NCBI GenBank assembly: GCA_003141335.1 | Contig: PLLR01000045.1 | Coordinates: 16,028 to 51,344, forward strand | From: Methanoregula sp. | GTDB taxonomy: Archaea > Halobacteriota > Methanomicrobia > Methanomicrobiales > Methanospirillaceae | DNA: 35,317 nt | Direction: 5' to 3' | Shown: piece by piece, positions 1 through 13,489 of the stretch | Numbering within the stretch: position 1 is the stretch's first letter | Layout: each line of letters opens with the position of its first letter | Position numbers and translations under genes: made by a program | Notes under the pieces: model-generated | Seen by the model: the letters and a program-made list of their open reading frames with translations, nothing else | Told to the model about the DNA's origin: nothing | Database searches by the model: none

Positions 1-150
1 TCCGTAAGCCGGAATGAAGGGGAACGAATAAGGCTGAACTCTCCGGATGACTTCATAACGGCAGGCATCATGTTCATCCTGAATACCATTTCAACAAACG
101 GTATATACGGACTTGCCGGTACTATTTTTAATTCCTTACATTTTTGCACA
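1..150 (+). CDS. possible C-terminal end of a gene entering from the left
   Basis: One forward frame is open from base 1 to a TAG at 148-150 (49 codons), while the other two forward frames close at once. The residues are a mixed hydrophilic start followed by a hydrophobic stretch (around FITAGIMFILNTIS). No family is recognised. It could be the tail of a protein whose body lies outside the window, or a chance open frame; 49 codons is too short to decide. Confidence 0.2.
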
Positions 151-157
151 TAGTACA

Positions 158-287: not shown

Positions 288-719
288 CTAGGCGAACCTA
301 CCCAGGATACCCAGGGTAAACGCCATTACAAGCAGGGCCACCGTTTCGGTCATACCCAATATGATCATGTAATTGCCGAATCCTTTACCGGTTTCTTCCA
401 TGGCGTCGCAGGCGCAGGCAGCACATTTACCCTGATAGTATGCAGAAAGACCTATAGCCGCGCCGCAAAAGGCGCCGATACCCCAAAGGTCATTGCCTTG
501 TACGGCAAGTTCAGACATCCTGTTCATTACGATCATGCCATAGATCGTCTGGGTAAGCGGAGCACCAACAAAAGCAAGGAGCATAAATGCCGCTGGCTTA
601 TTCTGGCTGTATTTCTTCTTCCATGCTCCTATCGCAGCCATTCCGGCGACACCGGCTCCAGCGGCAGACCCGCAGGCCGACAAGCCAAGCACCAAACCTA
701 ATCCCAGATCCCCAGTCAT
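288..719 (-). CDS. atpK: V/A-type ATPase subunit K (proteolipid c ring)
   Basis: Membrane rotor proteolipid of 143 aa with four transmembrane helices in two hairpins, the duplicated V-type form. The start at 719 is chosen because a strong AGGAGG lies 5 bases upstream of this ATG; a longer frame to 764 would add a charged non-homologous leader. Hairpin one has P-L-T-Q-T-I-Y (T56, Q57, Y60). Hairpin two has Q96 and the ion-binding E125 in TETVALL. This is the Na+-ligand set known from Enterococcus hirae NtpK (T64, Q65, Y68, Q110, E139), with identical spacing between Q and E. I infer a Na+-binding ring. It is the last gene of the seven-gene ATPase operon. Confidence 0.93.
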   Translation of the reverse strand: MTGDLGLGLVLGLSACGSAAGAGVAGMAAIGAWKKKYSQNKPAAFMLLAFVGAPLTQTIYGMIVMNRMSELAVQGNDLWGIGAFCGAAIGLSAYYQGKCAACACDAMEETGKGFGNYMIILGMTETVALLVMAFTLGILGRFA

Positions 720-732
720 GATATCCTCCTGT

Positions 733-2499
733 TCATTCTTTGAGCGGCTTGAATGCAAACCCACTCCATGTTACGTTCGCATGCCCCGAAAATTCCAGCA
801 CATTAAGCCTGACACCGTGCACGAGCACTGACATCAGTCCCAATATGATATTTAAGCTATGGCCGATTAAAATGATTACGACACCTGCCGCTAAAGCTGC
901 GACACCATCGCCCAATCCTGATGACAACGTATTCGTAGTCTCTGCTATGGCGAGACCTGCCAGGCCAACCGCAAAAAGACGTACATACGAGATCACGTCG
1001 GTAATATTATTCATAAGGCTCAACGCCACCGTCCCCAGCCCTTCTCCGATGGTTCTGAGCACATTAGCCTGGGGGTTAGTAAATAAAATCACGAGTACAA
1101 TCCCTGTAGCGAACAACCATATCCCCCAGGGTGGAAATGCTTCTCCCAGGATTAACGTCCTGGCTAGGAAAAATGCGGTCCAGAGTACGCATATCCATCC
1201 GACATCCGCAAGTGCTTTCAGCGACGGAAATTTCAGGTATGCCCTCCAGGAATGGGCAATGGATAAATGCAACGCTCCCAAAAAGAAGCAGAACGTTTGC
1301 ATAAAGTTGGCATCGTTTAACTGCGGAACGAGGGGCTTATATCCTAAGTTAAGCAACCATCCCTGACCAAAAAAGGTACCGGTCAGAACACCCCAAAGTA
1401 TTGCGCAGGAACCTAAGAGATAAAAAAGCGAAACGATCGTTTTCATCTCTGTGTTCAGCTTCATCATTTTCTGTACCACGAGAGCGATCAGTATATAGAC
1501 CAGCCCATAACCGGCATCACCTATCAGAATGCCAAAAAAGATGCTGAAAAAAATCAGAAACAGCGGACTTACGTCAAGTTCACGATATCCGGGCGTAAGC
1601 CCCAGGAGCTCAAGCACAGGTTTGATCCTACCGACCCATTTGGGATTGCGCAAGAGCGTCGGCACATTATCATCAGCCGACGGCTCAGTGATCACGATTC
1701 CCCATTTTCTGCTCCTGGCTTTTGCAATCAGATGCCCTTCCATGTCAAAAGGGATGTATCCCGTTACATAACTGATTGCCCCTTCCTTCCCCATGCCGCT
1801 TAATACCTGCTGGAATTCGATCTCTTTTTCCAGTTTTTTCTTTATTCTTAAAAGGGCTTCATAAAAACAAGCGGATTTTATAATCTCGCCTTGAATCATC
1901 TCCATATCCGTATTATTCCCGGCGAGCCGCTTTTTAAGCAAAGACAAGCTTTGCTTTGGCGGAAGAATTTCTAAAAAAGCGCATTCGAACTGCCTGCGGG
2001 ATATCGCCACGCAATGGGCGATGTCGCCTGCGGTAAATATCGTTTTCACTACCACGTCATCGGGAAAACTTCTTATTTCTTTTACCGGTACCTGGTAAAG
2101 CTTAAGGTAAATGCCGTTTTGGCTCAGGTGCTGAATCTGGTTGAGATCAACATCACCCCAGTGCTCCCACTCATTGATTTGACCGGTTATGTTTCTGGAT
2201 GAGGACTCCAGTTGTTCCTGGCGCTTGCCGAGTTCGATGATAGGGTTTGCAACCGCTATCCAGTCACCGATGATTATATTCTGCGGTTGAATTTTTTTCT
2301 CTAACGCTATCGCCCGGTTCAGGACATCAAACGAGGAATTAATTAAGGCCACTTTTTCCTGGAGCGCGGATACATCTCTGCCCTCAGGCAGATTCTGGTG
2401 CTCAACGTGTAAAACTCCTAATGTACGCAAATATTTTACCGTTGCTTCTGCATCTCCGGTTTCGAAAAGGATGGTAGCTTTTTTCATCGGAACAATCAC
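733..2499 (-). CDS. atpI: V/A-type ATPase subunit I (stator, a-subunit homologue)
   Basis: 588 aa. The N-terminal half (about 1-300) is hydrophilic with coiled-coil stretches and acts as peripheral stalk anchor. The C-terminal half (about 308-575) has about seven transmembrane helices. It contains SYVRLFAVGL with the arginine near residue 507, equivalent to the essential ion-channel arginine, and HGVRLNVLEF near the end. A GTG start at 2499 is preferred: GAGGAGG in the 3' end of the D gene lies 7 bases upstream, whereas the ATG at 2487 is too far. The start overlaps the D stop by 4 bases, implying translational coupling. Confidence 0.93.
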   Translation of the reverse strand: MIVPMKKATILFETGDAEATVKYLRTLGVLHVEHQNLPEGRDVSALQEKVALINSSFDVLNRAIALEKKIQPQNIIIGDWIAVANPIIELGKRQEQLESSSRNITGQINEWEHWGDVDLNQIQHLSQNGIYLKLYQVPVKEIRSFPDDVVVKTIFTAGDIAHCVAISRRQFECAFLEILPPKQSLSLLKKRLAGNNTDMEMIQGEIIKSACFYEALLRIKKKLEKEIEFQQVLSGMGKEGAISYVTGYIPFDMEGHLIAKARSRKWGIVITEPSADDNVPTLLRNPKWVGRIKPVLELLGLTPGYRELDVSPLFLIFFSIFFGILIGDAGYGLVYILIALVVQKMMKLNTEMKTIVSLFYLLGSCAILWGVLTGTFFGQGWLLNLGYKPLVPQLNDANFMQTFCFFLGALHLSIAHSWRAYLKFPSLKALADVGWICVLWTAFFLARTLILGEAFPPWGIWLFATGIVLVILFTNPQANVLRTIGEGLGTVALSLMNNITDVISYVRLFAVGLAGLAIAETTNTLSSGLGDGVAALAAGVVIILIGHSLNIILGLMSVLVHGVRLNVLEFSGHANVTWSGFAFKPLKE

Positions 2500-3107
2500 A
2501 TCGCCACCTCCTCAAAATTTGCTTCTTCGATTTTATTTTTGGCAATTTTGCTGCGACCAACGGCATTGGTCATCTGGTCGCTGATATAGATTTTAATCAG
2601 GCGGATTGCCTCTTTTGCCTCGGGGATTTTTACCTTTTCGAACAGATTGACGCGCTGCGTGGTAATACGCATTTCATGCTTTAGAACAGATATTGCTTTT
2701 TCAATGACCCTTATCTCTTCTTGTAAAGAGACCATATCCCTTAATGTTTCTAAGCCTGCATCCACCCAGAGAGGTGTTAAGAATAAATCATACTCCGCCG
2801 GCTCAAAATCCACGCGTTCAAAAACCGGTACATCAACCCCGGCAATGTTTTTCTTTGCGGTGATGATTTTTTTTAGGATAAGCCATTGCCTGATGTCGGG
2901 AGCCTCAACCAAAAGCCCTGACCAGTTTTCCGCTGCTTTCTCCTTTACTGATGAGGACGTCTCTCTCTCCCTGATAGCACTCTGCTGGTGTAAAATTTCA
3001 AGTTGCAACAGCTGCTTTTTAAGCTGCAGAGTGGGCAGATACCTCTCGTACTGCCGCAGGGCATCTCTTTGTCTTTTAAGTTCACCTTGAGTAAATTTTA
3101 TTTTCAT
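2496..3107 (-). CDS. atpD: V/A-type ATPase subunit D (central rotor shaft)
   Basis: 203 aa, the usual length. Subunit D forms the coiled-coil shaft that turns inside the A3B3 head. The family signature is visible: an N-terminal [16 protein letters not shown] helix rich in K, R, Q and L, and a second long helix near the C terminus (about 120-190). It overlaps the end of atpB by 26 bases and the start of atpI by 4 bases, so the operon is tightly coupled. No F subunit gene, which normally partners D at the foot of the shaft, is present beside it. Confidence 0.9.
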
Positions 3108-4401
3108 ACTTCTCTGGCCAATACTTATCTGTCATGGATTTCTTAATCCCGGTTTCCTCGGGAGAGAAACAATCGTGCAAAATCTCCCAGCCCAGATCCA
3201 GTGCTTTCTCCAGGGGGATATTTACCTTTAACGACATCATTTTATCTTCAAAGAGTTTTCCGTATGTAAGAAGTTTCATATCCCAGGCACTCATCTGAAA
3301 TCCCATGGCCTGCTTTTCCAGCGTTTCGCGGTAATCGGCAAAAAGCTGAATCATCGTATCCATAATCGTCCGGTGGTCATCACGGGTTTTGCTGTTGACC
3401 TGCTGCTTCAAACGGCTTAAGGAACCGAATGGTTCGATCACGCCGTTCTTAAGATAAAATTGCCCCTCGGTGATATAACCGGTATTGTCCGGAATCGGAT
3501 GAGTTACGTCATCTCCAGGCATCGTGGTTACTGCGAGAATAGTAATTGAGCCTGCGGTGTCAAAATCAACTGCCTTTTCATAGCGGGCTGCCAGCTGGCT
3601 GTAAAGGTCGCCCGGATATCCCCGGTTAGAAGGAACCTGTTGCATGGTGATGGCAATCTCTTTTAACGCATCGCAGAAATTGCTCATATCCGTCAATAGT
3701 ACCAGAACCCGTTTTCCCTCCAGAGCGAAATTCTCTGCCACCGCCAGACTGATATCCGGAACAAGCAAACACTCCACAACCGGATCGGCTGCGGTATGCA
3801 TAAACACAATCGAATGGGAAAGTGCGCCGTGTTCTTCTAAGGTGTCTCTGAAGAAAAGGTAATCATCATATTTTAAACCCATGCCACCTAAAATAATGAT
3901 ATCGATTTCCGCCTGGGTTGCGATTCTGGCCAACAGTTCGTTATAAGGCTCGCCGGCAATGGAAAAAATAGGGAGCTTCTGGGATTCAACTAAAGAATTA
4001 AATATATCGATCATGGGTATGCCCGTCCGAATCATCTTGTTCGGAATAATTCTTTTTACCGGATTCACGGGTGGCCCGCCGATATCGACGAGATTTTCGG
4101 AAAGTTCTGGCCCGTTATCCAGGGGCATACCGCTTCCGTTAAAAATGCGACCTAAAAGCATAGTGCCGGTGGTGATACGCATCGGGTGTCCTAAAAACCT
4201 TACCTTGTCGCCCGTAGAAATGCCGCGGCTTCCGGTAAAAACCTGTAAAAATACTTTTTTCCCGTCAAGGCGGATAACCTGGGCCAGGGAAGTTCCACGT
4301 TTGGTGATTACCTGGGCGAGCTCCGTATTGCCTACGTTTTCCGCCTCGACAGTAATGACGTCCCCGACAATCTGATTTATGTTGGTATATAATTTCTGCA
4401 T
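3082..4401 (-). CDS. atpB: V/A-type ATPase subunit B (non-catalytic head subunit)
   Basis: 439 aa. Non-catalytic nucleotide-binding-fold subunit alternating with A in the hexameric head. As usual for B it lacks a Walker A P-loop: the corresponding stretch reads [19 protein letters not shown]. The conserved segments [17 protein letters not shown] and [14 protein letters not shown] are present. The start at 4401 (MQKLYTNI) follows a GAAAGG site that overlaps the stop of atpA. A frame extending to 4461 would add a basic leader overlapping atpA and is unlikely to be used. Confidence 0.93.
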
Positions 4402-4402
4402 A

Positions 4403-6139
4403 CTAACCTTTCTTTGACCGCTCGAGTAAAAACACCCTGATCTCTTTTTCGGTTTTTTCAAACTCTTCGCTCCGCCATGGAGCGGAGTTCCAGCCCTTAA
4501 AAAGCTGTCTCAGTTGCTGAAAATAGTGTAAAGCCATATCTTTATCGGAAAAGTTGAATTCCGATTCCAAAATGCGGTAAATAAAATCAAAGACGTAAAT
4601 CTGCCGTTCTTTGGGGGTAGCTTCGTCAACTGCGTCAAAGGCATTCTGCTGCAGATAGACAAAATCAAAAAATTCTGCTTTAAGGTAGTCCACGTAATCG
4701 GAAAGCGAAGTCCCTTCTTCTCCGACAACTTTCATCATTTGCGCCACATCGAAACCCTTGCGCAGAATCCCGTGACCCCGCTCTTTTTGTTTCTCGTCAA
4801 TAAAACTTTGATACTTGCTCCAGCTGATTAACGGGTCTATTGCCGGGTATCTGCGGGCATCGGAACGGCTTCGGGAAAGCCCGTGGAATGCACCAACTAC
4901 TTTTAACGTTGCCTGGGTTACCGGCTCTTCAAAGTTTCCTCCTGCAGGGCTTACTGCTCCGCCGATGGTAACCGAACCGATTGAGCCGTCATATAACCGC
5001 ACCACACCTGCCCTTTCGTAGAAAGAGGCGATACGCGACTCTAAATATGCGGGGAACGCCTCTTCTCCGGGAATCTCTTCGAGCCTGCCGGACATCTCAC
5101 GCATGGCCTGGGCCCAACGGGAGGTGGAATCCGCAAGCAAAAGCACGTGAAGACCCATCTGACGGTAATATTCGGCTATCGTTACTGCCGTATAGACGCT
5201 CGATTCTCTCGCTGCTACAGGCATGGAGCTGGTATTACAGATAATGACGGTGCGGTCGCTCAAAGGCCGGTTGGTTCTGGGGTCAAGTATTGTAGGGAAT
5301 ATTTTTAATGTTTCGACAACTTCTCCGGCACGCTCGCCGCAGGCAGCAATCACGACAACATCCACTTCGGCATGCCGGCTGGTCAATTGCTGTAAAACTG
5401 TTTTCCCTGCTCCAAAAGGACCGGGAATACAATACGTCCCCCCCCGGGCCACAGGAAAGAGCGAATCAATAAGGCGCATCTTGGTAACCAGCGGTTCGCC
5501 GGGTTTAAATCTCTCGGCATATGCCTGAATAGGGATTTTCACGGGCCAATTCTGGCTTAAATACACAGGATAGATCTTTTTGTTTGAGTCTTTTATCTGA
5601 GCAACCGCCTCGCGTATCGTGAACTTGCCGGCATTTTCAATCGACACAACTTCAAAATTTCCCCGCAAAGAGAAGGGGACCATACAGTAGTGTTTAAATA
5701 TTTTTTCCACCACAAATCCGATTTTATCTCCGGCACGTACTCTATCACCGGGTTTTACCAGAGGAGTGAAATCCCAGACCTGGGTCTCAGAAAGCGCCGT
5801 GATATAAACACCGCGTTTTAAGAAAAAGCCGCATTGTCTGGCAATCTCTGGCAAGGGATTTTGCAGGCCGTCGAATATCTGACCTAGCATCCCCGGCCCC
5901 AGCTCAACCGAAAGAAGCTCTCCGGTAAACTCAACCTCTTCGCCGATTTTTAAACCGCCGGTTGCCTCATAGACCTGCATCTCCGCAAGGTTGCCGCGCA
6001 CACGGATGATTTCTGACTTAAGACGTTCGCTTGAGTGCAGGATATAGGCAACCTCATTCTGCATCACCGGAGAATCGAAACTGACAGTTACCATGTTACC
6101 GCTTATTTTGGTAATACGGCCTTTTCTGGGTGCTGTCAT
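4403..6139 (-). CDS. atpA: V/A-type ATPase subunit A (catalytic)
   Basis: 578 aa, full length. Catalytic ATP-hydrolysing/synthesising subunit of the head. The P-loop GPFGAGKTV is at 240-248 and the GER catalytic-glutamate region (ACGERAGEV) at 267-275. The A-type insertion, or non-homologous region, occupies about 110-200. The arrangement starts with a beta-barrel domain ([14 protein letters not shown]) as in the family. The gene lies 10 bases after the DUF2764 gene and one base before the atpB start. Operon order, not only similarity, assigns it to the spirochaete/chlamydia-type enzyme. Confidence 0.95.
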
Positions 6140-6149
6140 TTATACCCCG

Positions 6150-6680
6150 TTAATGCTGTAAAGCTTGTTTAAGCAGGATCGTTCCATCTGCACTGCGTAT
6201 GTTCTCCCAACGCTGGAGTATCAATAATTTATAGGCATAGGTTATCAGAAAATCCAGATCAAAATAATGGCCCGTTGCCAACTCTTCCAATGCCTTCCAG
6301 CGCGTTTCATCCAGTATCTTCTCCGCATCAAGAACAGAAGTATTTATGTTCACTGCCATAATTGCAGGGGCGAGGGAAGAACCGCTGTAGCCGTCGGTTC
6401 GCAGATATGTCGCAGGCTCAATATGTTTTTTTGTGGCACGTATCTTGACCAACTCATTTCTTAAGGCAACATCGAATTCGATCCATTTCTGAATAATCTG
6501 GTGTTTTTTGCCTTTTTTAAAATATTGTTCGGGTTGCGGCAACGTACGTACTAGTTGAAAGTCTTTTTCCGGAATAAGCGGGCTACATACTTCAAGAAAC
6601 CGCTCAAAAGAAAATGGCGGCTTCATTCCGAAATGCAGCATAGGCAGGCTTGCGATCAAATAGGGATAAAAATCTGCCAT
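6150..6680 (-). CDS. DUF2764 family protein of the V-ATPase operon
   Basis: 176 aa, soluble, no membrane segment. It opens with MADFYPYLIASLPML, typical of DUF2764, the conserved small gene that sits between atpE and atpA in spirochaete and chlamydial V-ATPase operons (for example the gene between atpE and atpA in Borrelia and Chlamydia). Function is not experimentally established to my knowledge. Because no separate C (d) subunit gene is present, I infer that it may fill the place of subunit C, linking rotor or stalk to the head. The rest is alpha-helical looking, which is compatible with a C-like fold but does not prove it. Confidence 0.85.
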   Translation of the reverse strand: MADFYPYLIASLPMLHFGMKPPFSFERFLEVCSPLIPEKDFQLVRTLPQPEQYFKKGKKHQIIQKWIEFDVALRNELVKIRATKKHIEPATYLRTDGYSGSSLAPAIMAVNINTSVLDAEKILDETRWKALEELATGHYFDLDFLITYAYKLLILQRWENIRSADGTILLKQALQH

Positions 6681-6686
6681 TTTATT

Positions 6687-7298
6687 TCATTCCTTAATTG
6701 CTTCCTGAAGGATCTGGTTTAATTTCGGCTTAAGATAGGTGCCGATATATTCTGCCAGGGCCTTGTCGGTAAAATCATAACAGGATTTTCCGCTGTCAAA
6801 ACTTATGGTAAAACCTCCTGAAATTTCTTCCGCAGGCCTCAAAATGATCTTTTTCTTCGTTTCTTCCCTGAGTTTGTGCAAAAAATTTTTTTCCAGGGTT
6901 TCCAGGTCCTCCTTATTAAGGAAAACCGTAATGTCACTACTTTCCCCCACGCTATAGTTCCTGACCACTTCTAATAAGAGTTTGAATAGTGCCTCGGGGA
7001 TCAAGGCCTGCTGGATGTCTGAAACCACAATGCACCCAAGCATGGCATTAATTTCTTTTCTTAAGGATAGAAGCAGATCCCTTCCCGCCTGAGCAAGCAG
7101 GGTTTTTCCTTTTTCGTCTTCACGGCGAATCCTGTCTTTCGCGGCAGCAATCATTTCCTCTGCCTCAAGCTTTGCCTGAGCAAGGGTGTCATCGGCTCTT
7201 TGCTTTGCCGCAGCCTCTATATTTTGAGCCTTTTCCTCCGCGGCCTTGATTCCTTCCTGATTTATTTTTTCGATCAAGTCTCTAATCTCTTCTGCCAT
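6687..7298 (-). CDS. atpE: V/A-type ATPase subunit E (peripheral stalk)
   Basis: 203 aa, first gene of the operon. Residues about 15-85 form a long charged coiled coil rich in A, E, K and Q (EEKAQNIEAAAKQRADD), the stalk helix. The C-terminal globular part (about 100-203) binds the top of the head. A ribosome site AAGAGG precedes the ATG by 6 bases. In other enzymes E pairs with G/H, but no such gene is seen here. Six bases separate it from the DUF2764 gene. Confidence 0.9.
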   Translation of the reverse strand: MAEEIRDLIEKINQEGIKAAEEKAQNIEAAAKQRADDTLAQAKLEAEEMIAAAKDRIRREDEKGKTLLAQAGRDLLLSLRKEINAMLGCIVVSDIQQALIPEALFKLLLEVVRNYSVGESSDITVFLNKEDLETLEKNFLHKLREETKKKIILRPAEEISGGFTISFDSGKSCYDFTDKALAEYIGTYLKPKLNQILQEAIKE

Positions 7299-7583: not shown

Positions 7584-8459
7584 ACGTTTAGAAAGGTATT
7601 AGTTCCCACAGATTTTTCTGAATACGCAAAAAAAACCATTTTATGCCTCACGAGGATCCCCGGGATACAGGAAGTCGTCCTCCAGCATGTTGTCGATGCC
7701 ACTCTTCACACCAAGCACGGGTGGACACACCAGGCACATATTGAGAATGCGAAAATCCAGCTGGAGGAGGAAAAAAAATTCCTTGAACATCTGGGATTTG
7801 TCGTGAAGGTGACCGTTGATGTCATCACCAGTGGCGATATCTCGACTGCAATTCTCACGAAGGCCGGGTGCGAGAACGTTTCATCCATCATCATTGGTTC
7901 CCGCGGGAGAGGACTTGTCAAAGGCCTCCTGCTTGGGAGCGTTTCGGCTGATATATTACGCCATGGAAAGACGCACCTTTTGATTTTCCGGCACAGCCTT
8001 GCCAGGGAGCTTGACGGAGCAGTATTCAGCAGGTTCTGTCCCGGGATATTTACCCGGGTACTATTCCCCACAGATTTTTCCGAACCTGCACAAAAGGCGC
8101 TGTCATCAATAAAGGATATTGAAGGGTTAGGCGAGGTACATATACTTCATGTCGTGACGAAGGGGGAAACTCATAAAGATATCGAGTCAAATGTTCAGGA
8201 AGCAACAAAGAAACTTGAGGAAATAAAAACCGATCTTACTGGTGCCGGGCTCCCAGTAAAGATTCATATCCGTCTGGGTCGACCACCTGACGAAATTATC
8301 AGCCTTGCAGATGCAGAGGATATCTCACTGATTCTTATGAACTCGCACGGGAAAGGTTTACTGACGGAGCTTCTTGTCGGGAGTACCACGCTTGGTGTCT
8401 CCATCCACACTAACCGACCCCTGATGGTCATCCGGACTCCGGGCAAACCGCGGAATTAA
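7584..8459 (+). CDS. tandem-domain universal stress protein (UspA family), apparent ACG start
   Basis: 291 aa with two Usp domains. Each begins with the beta-1 motif VLVPTDFSE or VLFPTDFSE (residues about 5-13 and 155-163). The first has an intact ATP-binding G-2x-G-9x-G-S motif (GSRGRG...LLLGS). In the second the first Gly is replaced by Asn (NSHGKG...VGS). The reading frame is intact from an in-frame TAG at 7581-7583, but it has no ATG, GTG or TTG before the GTG at 7803, which would cut off half of domain one. ACG at 7584 stands exactly 5 bases after GGGGTGA and yields (M)FRKVLVPTDF, the normal Usp N terminus. So the start is either a genuine ACG, a mutated ATG or a sequence error. Confidence 0.8.
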   Translation, partial: TFRKVLVPTDFSEYAKKTILCLTRIPGIQEVVLQHVVDATLHTKHGWTHQAHIENAKIQLEEEKKFLEHLGFVVKVTVDVITSGDISTAILTKAGCENVSSIIIGSRGRGLVKGLLLGSVSADILRHGKTHLLIFRHSLARELDGAVFSRFCPGIFTRVLFPTDFSEPAQKALSSIKDIEGLGEVHILHVVTKGETHKDIESNVQEATKKLEEIKTDLTGAGLPVKIHIRLGRPPDEIISLADAEDISLILMNSHGKGLLTELLVGSTTLGVSIHTNRPLMVIRTPGKPRN

Positions 8460-8706: not shown

Positions 8707-9036
8707 ATGCCTGATGTAACAAATGACGAGCGGGGGAGAAGAATTTTTCAGCTGCACAAGGAGAGAGCTGTCGAGACGGCAATAGAGAAGATCCGCCACA
8801 ACCCGGGATCCGGTTTATCTGCATTTTCACCGCAGGACATAAAAACGCTGAACTACATCCTTGGCGAGACGTGGGTCTCCGTAGGGAGACAAATCTGGGA
8901 ACAGAGTTCCTTTACCCGCCTGACGAGAAAAGATCTGGAGGAGATCATCAGTATCGGAAACGATGTAAACAGCAAGAAATTGCGGGAGGAGACGGGGGTC
9001 AATAAGATCTGCGGGATCCTCAAGGGATCCATCTGA
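8707..9036 (+). CDS. uncharacterised 109-aa protein, copy 1 of a paralogous pair
   Basis: 109 aa, soluble, predicted helical, no signal peptide or membrane helix and no cysteine cluster. It begins MPDVTNDERGRRIF and contains RxxVExAIxKIxH near residues 20-31 and a central FSPQDIKTL...TW. A gap-free alignment to the protein encoded at 10673-11002 gives about 40 identities in 109 by hand count, including MPDV, GRR, AI.KI.H, DI, TW, IW and the C-terminal spacing. GAGG lies upstream of the ATG. I do not recognise the family. The two copies flank the inverted cation-transporter gene, suggesting a local duplication. Confidence 0.75.
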   Translation: MPDVTNDERGRRIFQLHKERAVETAIEKIRHNPGSGLSAFSPQDIKTLNYILGETWVSVGRQIWEQSSFTRLTRKDLEEIISIGNDVNSKKLREETGVNKICGILKGSI

Positions 9037-9288
9037 TGAGGGGGGGGAAAATAGTATCCTCTGATCTGTACAGCAATATTTTTTTGCTCCTTTTTTACTA
9101 TTCTTTAAAAAAAATTTTAAAGGGATGCAATTCTTGTTTTTAAGGAGTGAAATGACACTCCCAAAAAACCGTAGCTGTGCCTTCAAAGCCGTCATGCACC
9201 CGGCACCTGATGCCTTCCTGTTCTCCAGACTTCACTCCCTGTGGGTGGATATGATTCGCCCGTATCACGGAACAAAAATGTCTGCCGT

Positions 9289-10413
9289 TTATGCCAAACC
9301 AAGATACTGGGGAATAAAGAGAATACCAAAGAAGCACACCATCAGAACAAGACCGAGAGGGATTCCTCTTCTTGCCCATTCCTTGCTCGTAATCTCCAGT
9401 TTTCCTGCAGCAATGATATTGGGAATGTTTCCGGGGATGAGCATCCCTCCGGCGATAATAAGTCCCATAATGGCACTTTTTATCTGCTGGACAGAAAGGG
9501 CGGGCCCGATCTCAGCGGCGGCAAGTGTGGCGTTGTCAAGCACAGCAGAGACCATATTTACCCAGTAAAGCCCCTCTGCCGGGATTTGTATCACATAATC
9601 GAGGACGACCGGTTTAAAACCCTCGCCAAGAAAGACCAGTGCCATAATAAACAGGTACACTTTTCCGGAACGAACAACAACCTGCCTGATTGTCTCCCGC
9701 TGGAGGTGGCATTCGGATATTCCCGTTCCGGTGCTGCCTCGTTTGTACAGGATGACCCCGATAATTCCCATAAGGATGACTGCAGGTATGATATAGATGC
9801 CCAGGATACGGATGAGAAAATCGAAGCCGGCATAATGGGGGGCACCGGAAAGCTTGGCAATAACAATCGTGGAGAGGGGTTCTCCGAGTGGTGTTAAAGC
9901 GGCACCAAGCCCGATTGCAAAGCAAGCGACAACAGTAATGTCAATCTTGGAACCCCGGTCAAGCGGCAGCGCACAGATAATTTCGACAAGCAAAATCGCT
10001 GCGAGTATTGCAGAGATTACACTCGAGATGAGTCCCAGAGTGATAATCAGTCCGAAAACGATCGTGGATACCGAGAATTTTTTCACCAGGCTATATATTG
10101 CCAGCTCGATTTGCCGGTACCAGACATAAATGATAATCCCGATAAGGAGCACGATCTGCACGATTCCTATCGGTATCCCATAGATATTGGTAATATTCAG
10201 CGGGGTGGTCAGGGCTTCTGTCAGGATCTTCCAGCTCCAACCCGTCTGTTCTCCAGGTAAAGGGATAAAACCGGAGAAAGTCAGTGCAAGTACTCCTGAG
10301 ATGAACAGGAAAATCTCGAGGTTGCGCTCAATTGCCCGGACTTTGAATGGCAGGACTAAAACCGCAATGAAAATAACGATGAGGCCGATCTTAGCCTGCA
10401 TTATATCCAGCAT
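9289..10413 (-). CDS. DUF1646 family putative cation transporter
   Basis: 374 aa, strongly hydrophobic with roughly ten transmembrane helices. It resembles the DUF1646 'predicted cation transporter' family of archaea, related to the ArsB/NhaD-type ion transporters. The central GLGAALTPLGEPLSTIVIAKL, about residues 175-195, is the kind of G/P-rich broken-helix segment found in that superfamily. Substrate is unknown; Na+/H+ exchange is only an inference. The ATG at 10413 or the one four codons later could be used; neither has a strong ribosome site. The gene is inverted relative to both flanking 109-aa paralogues. Confidence 0.75.
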   Translation of the reverse strand: MLDIMQAKIGLIVIFIAVLVLPFKVRAIERNLEIFLFISGVLALTFSGFIPLPGEQTGWSWKILTEALTTPLNITNIYGIPIGIVQIVLLIGIIIYVWYRQIELAIYSLVKKFSVSTIVFGLIITLGLISSVISAILAAILLVEIICALPLDRGSKIDITVVACFAIGLGAALTPLGEPLSTIVIAKLSGAPHYAGFDFLIRILGIYIIPAVILMGIIGVILYKRGSTGTGISECHLQRETIRQVVVRSGKVYLFIMALVFLGEGFKPVVLDYVIQIPAEGLYWVNMVSAVLDNATLAAAEIGPALSVQQIKSAIMGLIIAGGMLIPGNIPNIIAAGKLEITSKEWARRGIPLGLVLMVCFFGILFIPQYLGLA

Positions 10414-10672
10414 CCCTAATTTGTAGGGGGGGGTAACTTGTAAACTTATTGAATTTTTTTTGGTATTTCACCCAGGGCAAAGTACACACCAATCGAACAA
10501 CAGGAACATTATCCCAACATCCCGGCTCATTATCATCTTCATCCCGGGGTTCCCCGTTCTTTTGGTATCGACAGTCCTGTCCAAAGGGAGGGATGCCATA
10601 AAGGTTATCACGTGAGAGGGTAATGAGAAAACTGATCACGCATTCGTGTGCGGGAGAAGGGGGTTTTAAAAA

Positions 10673-11002
10673 ATGCCTGATGTATCGCAAAAAGAAGTGG
10701 GAAGACGGCTGTACCATGTACACCGTGAAAAGAGAGTGGAAGAGGCAATAAAAAAAATAAAACATGGCGTTGGCACAGACTGGAGCTCATTTACCCGGGA
10801 AGATATTGATCTCCTCGGGCACCTGTTGCAATGCACCTGGAATGTAATTGATCAGAAGATCTGGGATGATGTGCCCTTTGGCAGTATGACAAAAAATGAG
10901 GTCCAGAAAATCCTTTCATACGGGCAGGGGGTTGGCCCGGGAAAGAACCCGGAGCCGGCTGCAGTCGCGGAGATAAAAAAAATTCTGCTCTCTCTCAAGT
11001 GA
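10673..11002 (+). CDS. uncharacterised 109-aa protein, copy 2 of a paralogous pair
   Basis: 109 aa, same length as the protein at 8707-9036 and alignable to it without gaps (about 37% identity by hand count). It starts MPDVSQKEVGRRLY and keeps AIKKIKH, the DI...LL...TW block and IWDD. Divergence is highest in the last 25 residues, which are proline-rich here. A run of eight T follows shortly after the stop. The family is not recognised; the helical, charged make-up suggests a small soluble binding or regulatory protein, but nothing in the sequence fixes this. Confidence 0.75.
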   Translation: MPDVSQKEVGRRLYHVHREKRVEEAIKKIKHGVGTDWSSFTREDIDLLGHLLQCTWNVIDQKIWDDVPFGSMTKNEVQKILSYGQGVGPGKNPEPAAVAEIKKILLSLK

Positions 11003-11084: not shown

Positions 11085-12248
11085 TTACGATGTCGCTACT
11101 GCCACGCACTCTTCAATCGAGCCAATCCGGGCAACCGCCCCGCACATATCCGGCACATAGGCAAGCGCTTTACCACTATTCACCATGATCGCTGAGTATC
11201 GCTCCATCACCGGTGAGACCACCATGCAGGTATCGGCAAAGACCCGGGCTCCGCTTTTCTCAATAGCATCGACGGTCTTTTGGTTGTTATCGATGACTCC
11301 CTGTGCGGCAAAGACATAGAAGGGTTTTGTGACAATTTTTCCTTTCAGGAGCCGCGCGATATCAACAAGTTCAGCGGGCGAGCAGTGTGGACAGCCCACA
11401 GCAACTGCATCAACCGGGATTTCGGTAAAGAGCACGTCGATCTCTGCGGGTTCTGTCCTGATAACCTCAAGAGATGAAAGATTGAACCGGTTCTTCTTTG
11501 CCTCCGGGGTTACATCTTCAACATGATAGAGCGCTACCGCCCCGGTTGCCGCCATTGCTGCACCGAGGGCTTTCAGCTGGTCGGGATTGGGAGTGATGCC
11601 CCGGAACCAGGGTATTTTATTGCCCACCAGTTTCCCGGCAAGATAGCCAAGCGCGCCGTAGCGGGCAATGCTCCAGTTCTTTTCATCGGGTTGTACTTCA
11701 ATGATCACCTGGGGGTTACGGTTTTTTTCAAGGTGCAGCCCATAACAGGGGGTTTTTCCAATCAGGGCGGCAGCAAGTGCACCGGGGCCCCCCTCGCGGT
11801 TTGTCCGTGCCCCGATGACCGAGTTGGCGTAACTGACAGCGGACGATTCCGACCATGCAAGATGATCGCCAAAAGAAGTTTCACGCAGGTAATAGGGAGT
11901 GCAGGTGCAATCAAGGTTCACACCGAGCCGCTCATATGCCGCGATCACCGCCTGCTGTCGTTCTGCAAACGCTGGTTCGACATCCATCTCCTGCCAGCGT
12001 TCGCGCGGCATGCCAATCGGGTTTAACACCGCCGGAACCACGACACGGGCATCAAGACCCGACAGCCATGCAAGCCCGTATTCCCCGATCGTCTTGTACG
12101 AGGCCCCGCTTACCTGTGCACTCCGGATCCTGACAAGCCGTTCAGCACCAAAAACCTTGCCAAGAGCGACGAGAAGTTCCAGCATTTTCTGCCGGGTCTC
12201 ACCCTGCTCACCGGCAAGGATCTTCTCATCGTCGGGATCAAGATGCAT
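11085..12248 (-). CDS. aconitase X family: phosphomevalonate dehydratase large subunit
   Basis: 387 aa from the ATG at 12248, which has GGTGA 5 bases upstream. The ATG at 12260, overlapping the ubiD stop, is the alternative. The single-domain aconitase X catalytic fold is recognised from segments such as CTCTPYYL, SESSAVSYANSVIGARTNREGGP and GCPHCSPAEL. Cysteines at 114, 116, 286, 289, 341 and 369 include the probable [4Fe-4S] ligands. In archaea this family, with a small swivelling subunit, dehydrates mevalonate 5-phosphate to trans-anhydromevalonate 5-phosphate. Placement directly after ubiX and ubiD supports that role. No small-subunit gene is in the window. A bacterial hydroxyproline-type AcnX role is less likely. 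Confidence 0.88.
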   Translation of the reverse strand: MHLDPDDEKILAGEQGETRQKMLELLVALGKVFGAERLVRIRSAQVSGASYKTIGEYGLAWLSGLDARVVVPAVLNPIGMPRERWQEMDVEPAFAERQQAVIAAYERLGVNLDCTCTPYYLRETSFGDHLAWSESSAVSYANSVIGARTNREGGPGALAAALIGKTPCYGLHLEKNRNPQVIIEVQPDEKNWSIARYGALGYLAGKLVGNKIPWFRGITPNPDQLKALGAAMAATGAVALYHVEDVTPEAKKNRFNLSSLEVIRTEPAEIDVLFTEIPVDAVAVGCPHCSPAELVDIARLLKGKIVTKPFYVFAAQGVIDNNQKTVDAIEKSGARVFADTCMVVSPVMERYSAIMVNSGKALAYVPDMCGAVARIGSIEECVAVATS

Positions 12249-12253
12249 CGGGG

Positions 12254-13489
12254 TCACCATGTCGCACGTGAAAAGTCGTCCTCACACCCAAGCACCATCG
12301 TTGCATCGACTCCGACTTTGACATTGGTTCCATCCTCGAGCTGGCAGGGATCGAGCGACGAACCCCGCACACCGGTGATCACCATGATATCCCGGTCACC
12401 GCTCACCCGGGTCGCAATCGCATACTCCACGTCATGTGGATCACAGGGATCGATATCCTCGTCTACAATAACAACGTGTTTGAGTGAGGTGTGAGCGGCA
12501 AATGCTGCCATAATCGCGTTCTTTGCATCACCCTGTGTACTCTTTTTAATCTGGATTACCGCGTGGAGGTAACCGCACCCTCCTTTGGTCAGCACGACAT
12601 TCCGCACCTCGGTGACCCCTGCCACGGCGCGGTAGATCTTCGGTTCATACGGGCAGCCCATCAGCACTTTATGTTCATCGCCGCCGGGCAGGATCCCGTG
12701 GTAGATGAAATCCGGTTTTGTATACATACCGGTAAACTCGATCACCGGCTGGCGCCGTACCGGGTCATAAGTTCCGGTAATATCCACAAACGGGCCCTCA
12801 TCGGTGACGTCTGCACCGATATATCCTTCTAAGACGATCTCCGCGTCGGGTACCAGCACTCCATTGCTGCATCTCCTCACCCGGATCTCGCCGCCAAGGA
12901 GTTCTGCAGCATACCCGAGCTCCATACCGTAGGGCACCCGGGTGCAACTGGCAAAGGTCACTGCCGGGTGAGTCCCGATGGTGACGGCAATGGGCAGTTT
13001 TTCGCCTTTGGCGAGCGCTTTTCCCAGCATCACATGCGTATGCCGCCCCTCAACGAGTCGGGCGGCAACCCGATGGTTGTCCAGCACCTGCATCCGGTGG
13101 ATCGAGGCATTCTCCACGTCTTCAAACAGCGAGAATACAATCCCCGAGGTCAGGTATTTGCCTGCATCCTTCGGGAAGTGGTGCATGATCGGGAGTTTGG
13201 CGAGGTCTGGTTTTTTGGTCGGGAGCGTGCCGTCCGTTACTACCTTCCCGTCAAATTTTGCATCGGCGAGAGTCTTTACAATCTTCTTTTCGTCAATGCC
13301 CAGTGCAAGGGAGAGCGAAGTCCGGCTGGCCGTGAGGTTCATAACCGCCCGGGCACCGTTGATCTTATGGAAGAAGAGGAGCTTGTCGGTCGCGGCTGCC
13401 ATCTTCGGGGCCTGCATATCAACCGATACCGGTTCCTCGACATCGACCACAAGTCCGCGTTCCCGCATCTTTTCTATAAATTCACGCAT
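12254..13489 (-). CDS. UbiD family decarboxylase (probable anhydromevalonate phosphate decarboxylase)
   Basis: 411 aa, UbiD superfamily, a prenylated-FMN-dependent decarboxylase. Recognisable segments are GRHTHVMLGKAL, AVTIGTHPAVTFAS, GPFVDITGTYDPVRRQPV and the C-terminal TRVSGDRDIMVI. In archaea one UbiD homologue decarboxylates trans-anhydromevalonate 5-phosphate to isopentenyl phosphate. The neighbouring aconitase X gene makes that the best assignment here. It overlaps ubiX by 8 bases at its start (13489) and the aconitase X frame at its end, so the three are co-translated. UbiD for another aromatic acid cannot be excluded from sequence alone. Confidence 0.88.
   Translation of the reverse strand: MREFIEKMRERGLVVDVEEPVSVDMQAPKMAAATDKLLFFHKINGARAVMNLTASRTSLSLALGIDEKKIVKTLADAKFDGKVVTDGTLPTKKPDLAKLPIMHHFPKDAGKYLTSGIVFSLFEDVENASIHRMQVLDNHRVAARLVEGRHTHVMLGKALAKGEKLPIAVTIGTHPAVTFASCTRVPYGMELGYAAELLGGEIRVRRCSNGVLVPDAEIVLEGYIGADVTDEGPFVDITGTYDPVRRQPVIEFTGMYTKPDFIYHGILPGGDEHKVLMGCPYEPKIYRAVAGVTEVRNVVLTKGGCGYLHAVIQIKKSTQGDAKNAIMAAFAAHTSLKHVVIVDEDIDPCDPHDVEYAIATRVSGDRDIMVITGVRGSSLDPCQLEDGTNVKVGVDATMVLGCEDDFSRATW

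Follow-up and report, generated by a model that had tools for sequence, protein, structure and literature searches.

The window analysed here, a 35,317-nucleotide stretch of DNA from Methanoregula sp., carries two members of an apparently undescribed family of small proteins. It is well supported that the presence of this family tracks one subtype of archaeal A1AO ATP synthase, called type 2 below, almost perfectly, and that its genes usually adjoin the type-2 operon, at either end. Our main reading, to which we assign a probability of about 0.5, is that the two paralogues, alpha and beta, represent a small, soluble-looking and mainly helical family that serves the type-2 enzyme by acting on its assembly or activity; the pair in the window are candidate helpers or regulators of that ATP synthase. 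The novelty lies in the companion family, the ATPases themselves having already been reported in the available text of PMC11738941.

A pair of old paralogues

Copy A (the alpha paralogue, 109 aa) lies at 8707..9036 of the window and copy B (the beta paralogue, 109 aa) at 10673..11002, both as open reading frames on the + strand, identified by BLASTP and by a tree of family members. An earlier note on this DNA had claimed equal length, gapless alignment at about 37% identity and a common MPDV start, all of which is borne out: BLASTP aligns A and B without gaps with 40 of 105 residues identical (38%; 40/109 over full length) and 66 of 105 similar (E=2e-27), and their global alignment scores 195, whereas 1000 shuffles average -35.6 (sd 12.1) and reach at most 5. 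Both copies behave like genuine genes, as is evident from their dN/dS between genomes (0.05-0.27 in six comparisons for B, 0-0.14 in four for A) and from relatives in which the start is kept and the length nearly so. The family tree, which rests on few columns (109), is rooted at its midpoint and has several long branches, places A and B on either side of a split with support of 95/88; judged by that split they are old paralogues and not a recent duplication. Both are hydrophilic overall (GRAVY -0.56 and -0.51), and their AlphaFold2 models are confident and mainly helical (pLDDT 87.8 and 87.3).

Distribution and conservation of the family

Among 40 related genomes, a set in which the window's own genome (G000) is counted, the family was found in 26, mostly as two copies each. 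A profile (A1) built from 72 members recovered it from 41 of the 392 genomes of the window's phylum; these carriers are Methanomicrobiales, apart from five genomes of a family that lies outside that order, f7; copy number varies between one and two, and the weakest listed profile match stands at E=3e-30, leaving no twilight zone. The 72-member alignment has four invariant positions (M1, G10, R12 and W56) and seven near-invariant ones (R11, E23, W37, L48, L52, W64 and F69).

No relative with a known function, by sequence or by fold, was found in PDB sequences, PDB folds, Pfam or NCBIfam. The earlier description of the family as unrecognised stands, since Pfam and NCBIfam scans of the 72 members returned nothing credible (scattered matches, best E 0.004), and no ATPase family was matched in Pfam. 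A single PDB sequence match to an enkurin-domain protein (E 0.036) was taken as chance. With neither model did Foldseek match a PDB structure at E 0.001 or lower (best E 1.9 for B and 0.57 for A), while the best VIA-align match for B, the chromatin remodeler Yta7 (Z 5.0, rmsd 2.9, 68 aligned), may reflect merely a common helical arrangement. Descent of the family from an ATPase subunit by copying was considered and rejected, hhalign giving probabilities below 1% against alignments of H, E, F, D, C, K, I, the V-type E-like protein and DUF2764. Full-text literature searches on archaeal and Methanomicrobiales ATP synthases and on DUF1646 returned no title on such a family, in a coverage outside which most subscription journals fall.

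Co-occurrence with the type-2 ATP synthase

Several ATPase loci are present in most genomes, as seen in searches with subunit D. When the query was the D subunit of the left-hand operon of the window's genome, the listed matches were bimodal, with 65% identity or more in 37 genomes and otherwise 49% or less; type 2 is defined as a D match of at least 65% identity, among the matches listed, in 110 Methanomicrobiales genomes, and the family search took in the identical 110. All 35 family carriers possess a type-2 subunit D. The family is thus present in 35 of the 37 genomes with type-2 D and in 0 of the 73 without (p=1e-26) and, counted by genus, in 14/15 with and 0/14 without (p=2e-7), although these p values ignore the relatedness of the genomes and so overstate independence. 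The two genomes with type-2 D and without the family are G265 (D at 65% identity, genome 96% complete) and G414 (62% complete), and the family is absent from genomes that hold other A-type ATPases only. Its distribution is patchy within the genus, within the families f1 and f2 and between the two f6 genera, a pattern which suggests that the family and the type-2 ATPase may have been gained or lost jointly on repeated occasions. One genome has a partial second type-2 D (G345:C13:43623-44066; 69% identity, residues 44-191) directly adjoining a family gene.

For eight genera of Methanomicrobiales the prevalent set consists of two H+ and one Na+ A-ATPases, according to the available text of ProAD (PMC11738941). 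Read by eye, helix 1 of the type-2 K subunits carries Gln in 35 of 39 cases and Met in the four from f6, and all have Glu-Thr in helix 2 followed by a hydrophobic residue. A Na+-specific type-2 enzyme was considered and is not claimed, because a hydrophobic residue after Glu-Thr means H+ under the residue rule for ion choice in K (PMC2359735; applied by ProAD, PMC11738941), as the accessible parts of these sources give it.

Gene layout at the ATPase operons

Merged stretches from 45 mapped genomes contain 72 family ORFs, two of which (in G201 and G013) were dropped by an overlap filter, so that 70 genes are counted. Of these, 57, in 38 of the 45 genomes, have a rotary-ATPase subunit gene no more than 1 kb away. 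Among the remaining 13, five come from stretches in which there is no ATPase gene, and eight belong to G000 (the window), G001, G005 and G084, two copies in each, where the nearest ATPase genes are V-type, 1.9-7.3 kb away, and not type 2.

Family genes occur at both ends of the type-2 operon and in several orientations: convergent (tail-to-tail) with D in 17 genomes, upstream of a co-directional K in 12, and upstream of a co-directional H in the four f6 genomes mapped, directly in one and beyond a small ORF in three. The two copies are divergent to each other in 12 genomes. The f7 genomes and G039 have one copy, which sits between two convergent ATPase operons and is equally close to the second. 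The ATPase link holds across five families that differ in their other flanks.

The type-2 operon of the window's genome lies just left of the window (G000 C50:6043-14534); its D, A, F, C, E, K and I are confirmed by Pfam, H scores 26.6 against a cut-off of 28, and B is labelled by its cluster. The window pair does not stand beside this operon, as 57 of the 70 genes do beside an ATPase gene, but is separated from it by a V-type ATPase operon on the - strand (288..7298; K, I, D, B, A, DUF2764 and E-like by Pfam), in which the label of subunit I is weak (26.7 bits, below the cut-off of 30.7) and that of the E-like protein consists of sub-threshold matches alone. This operon encodes a third rotary ATPase, of the DUF2764 type, and a DUF2764 search finds 4 of the 40 relatives. 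Its K subunit has four helices and, read by eye, shares Thr-Gln..Tyr, Gln and Thr-Glu-Thr with the Na+-binding NtpK of E. hirae, from which the V-type ATPase may be a Na+ enzyme. Nothing in the window reached an Rfam gathering score, hence there is no known Na+ riboswitch in it. The window also encodes a universal stress protein (Usp; 7803..8459, + strand; Pfam Usp 113.4 bits) and aconitase X (AcnX; 11085..12260, - strand; Pfam AcnX 486.2 bits), the right flank in Methanoregula, past which are genes that we take to be UbiD and UbiX.

Other genes recur around these loci. A Usp gene lies divergently upstream of the type-2 H end in nine genomes (window 1-153; L115:5-463), a position occupied by a CBS-domain gene in four of the five f7 genomes. 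A hydrogenase-like complex (L115:10774-15838; Proton_antipo_M, NADHdh, Oxidored_q6, Complex1_30kDa, Complex1_49kDa and Fer4) adjoins the family gene on the flank opposite the type-2 operon, and the same clusters are found in g12 and G230. The DNA polymerase II large subunit at L131:180-4082 shows an intein-splicing match that falls below threshold (30.5 bits, cut-off 35.8).

A candidate exchange of the ATPase block

A segment of the window's genome that runs from left of the window to about window position 9041 (G000 C50:5604-25068) is 89-93% identical to G001, and 91-93% from D onward, with short gaps; it contains the type-2 operon, Usp, the V-type operon and copy A. From copy B onward the identity between the two genomes falls to 74-78%, and the right flank of G001 is 87-90% identical to G015. 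Copy A is the same at 109/109 residues in G000 and G001 (dS 0.12), copy B at 75/109 (dS 1.36). This block of ~19 kb is a candidate for lateral exchange of an ATPase cassette, and the simplest reading of the comparison would be the lateral replacement of a two-ATPase cassette that carried alpha with it and left beta behind.

Proposed role and alternatives

In proposing how alpha and beta might serve the type-2 enzyme, we envisage that they would bind its cytoplasmic part or its assembly intermediates, making contact through the conserved N-terminal helix and the conserved Trp and Phe positions, and would control the assembly or activity of the type-2 enzyme in cells that have two or three rotary ATPases. 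We favour action by protein contact because there is no match to a DNA-binding or catalytic family, because the link is kept at either end of the operon, and because the charged and aromatic residues that are conserved would suit a surface for binding. A more specific version, which we offer tentatively and consider possible rather than probable, is a two-paralogue control system in which alpha travels with the cassette, beta stays chromosomal, and together they would choose which ATP synthase is assembled or active; such a system would be archaeal and ATPase-specific, with a fold unmatched in the PDB.

Relative to the archaeal A1AO operons (H-I-K-E-C-F-A-B-D), the family occupies terminal positions and accompanies one subtype, but it resembles none of the tested subunits and is absent where there are only other A-type ATPases. 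In bacteria, F-type operons encode the membrane proteins AtpI and AtpZ, and mitochondria have the helical inhibitor IF1. Set beside these as they are commonly described, our family is likewise small, non-core and an accompaniment of a rotary ATPase; however, it is hydrophilic overall and belongs to archaeal A-type loci.

The alternative that survives best, though we think it unlikely, is that the proteins act on the type-2 operon, at the level of its transcription or translation, and not on the enzyme. The copy directly upstream of K on the same strand in 12 genomes would suit an expression regulator, as would the 12 genomes with divergent copies, a common layout for autoregulated regulators, and the window copies are basic (pI 8.9 and 8.7). 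Yet pI ranges from 4.8 to 9.9 across 75 members (median 8.0), 17 genomes have a copy tail-to-tail with D and far from the operon start, and no helix-turn-helix or other DNA-binding family was credible in Pfam, where the top such match, HTH_48, reached E 0.057 in 3 of 72 members.

Less probable again is a stable extra subunit, that is, a stoichiometric non-core part of the type-2 ATPase in place of a transient factor. The almost strict co-occurrence with type-2 D, the location at operon ends and sizes close to those of subunits F and H (106-110 aa) all fit this, but the hhalign probabilities below 1% for each of H, E, F, D, C, K and I, the two genomes that have type-2 D and lack the family, and the frequent placement of the genes on the strand opposite to the operon count against it. 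We hold it just as improbable that the family is a passenger, an unrelated gene merely travelling with the ATPase island. The island is exchanged as a block and is flanked in some genomes by Usp, CBS and hydrogenase genes too, as this explanation would have it; however, the link survives changes in the other flanks, at either operon end and in several orientations, and copy B, which stays chromosomal in the exchange between G000 and G001, is still kept.

The DUF1646 bracket as a probable by-product of rearrangement

The observation that first drew attention to the pair, namely that it brackets an inverted DUF1646 gene, is correct, the transporter (9289..10413; Pfam PF07854, 413.7 bits, cut-off 21.4) lying on the - strand between the two + strand ORFs. 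According to the available text of PMC9337991, certain DUF1646 proteins are predicted to be Na+/H+ antiporters, and in bacteria a Na+ riboswitch is associated with the gene. The transporter that adjoins the pair in the window is a different protein from the family, and its association with the family is not conserved. The nearest named relatives of the window's DUF1646 protein, at 94, 93 and 91% identity, are from Methanoregula metagenome-assembled genomes, which marks the window, as far as this protein can indicate, as DNA of a Methanoregula-type archaeon.

That the pair are partners or regulators of this transporter, as the earlier note had suggested, is highly improbable and is largely refuted by co-occurrence. 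DUF1646 lies between the two copies in the window genome and in G005, it adjoins copy B on the named contig L032, which then ends, and in many Methanoregula it has the split-off H-I part of the type-2 operon close by. Against this, relatives of the pair are common without DUF1646 nearby, an outcome that the earlier note itself had named as refuting its idea: 2 of the 45 mapped genomes (G000 and G005) have DUF1646 at a distance of 1 kb or less from a family gene. Of the 40 relatives, 26 have the family, 19 have DUF1646 and 15 have both; DUF1646 is present in 15/26 family genomes (and missing from 11) versus 4/14 without the family, a difference that is not significant (p=0.10).

Gene order points the same way. 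In G001 a PHO4 phosphate transporter occupies the gap between A and B. G011 and G016 each have one subunit D and no family gene, and their order is AcnX, DUF1646 directly beside it, genes of a HEAT-repeat cluster and a gene of a DNA polymerase II large-subunit cluster, the latter two labels being taken from G000 members; in G011 (L142:6399-8743) AcnX and DUF1646 are on the same strand, 53 bases apart, with neither ATPase island nor family gene. The window genome shows this order with two insertions: B separates AcnX from DUF1646, and the ATPase island separates DUF1646 from the HEAT genes. From gene order, then, the likeliest reading is that the bracket arose when the DNA around a resident DUF1646 gene was rearranged, and DUF1646 would be an older chromosomal neighbour caught between A and B and not a partner. 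What holds of the proposed module beside the ATPase is that the family belongs with the neighbouring ATPases; the proposed link to DUF1646 does not hold.

Significance

These results correct a tempting but wrong reading, in which the bracketed transporter looked like the partner of the pair. Many Methanomicrobiales carry two or three rotary ATPases, as seen in our subunit D searches and in the available text of ProAD (PMC11738941). A small family that tracks one of these ATPases almost perfectly, and that comprises two old paralogues, offers a testable handle on how cells separate or choose among them.
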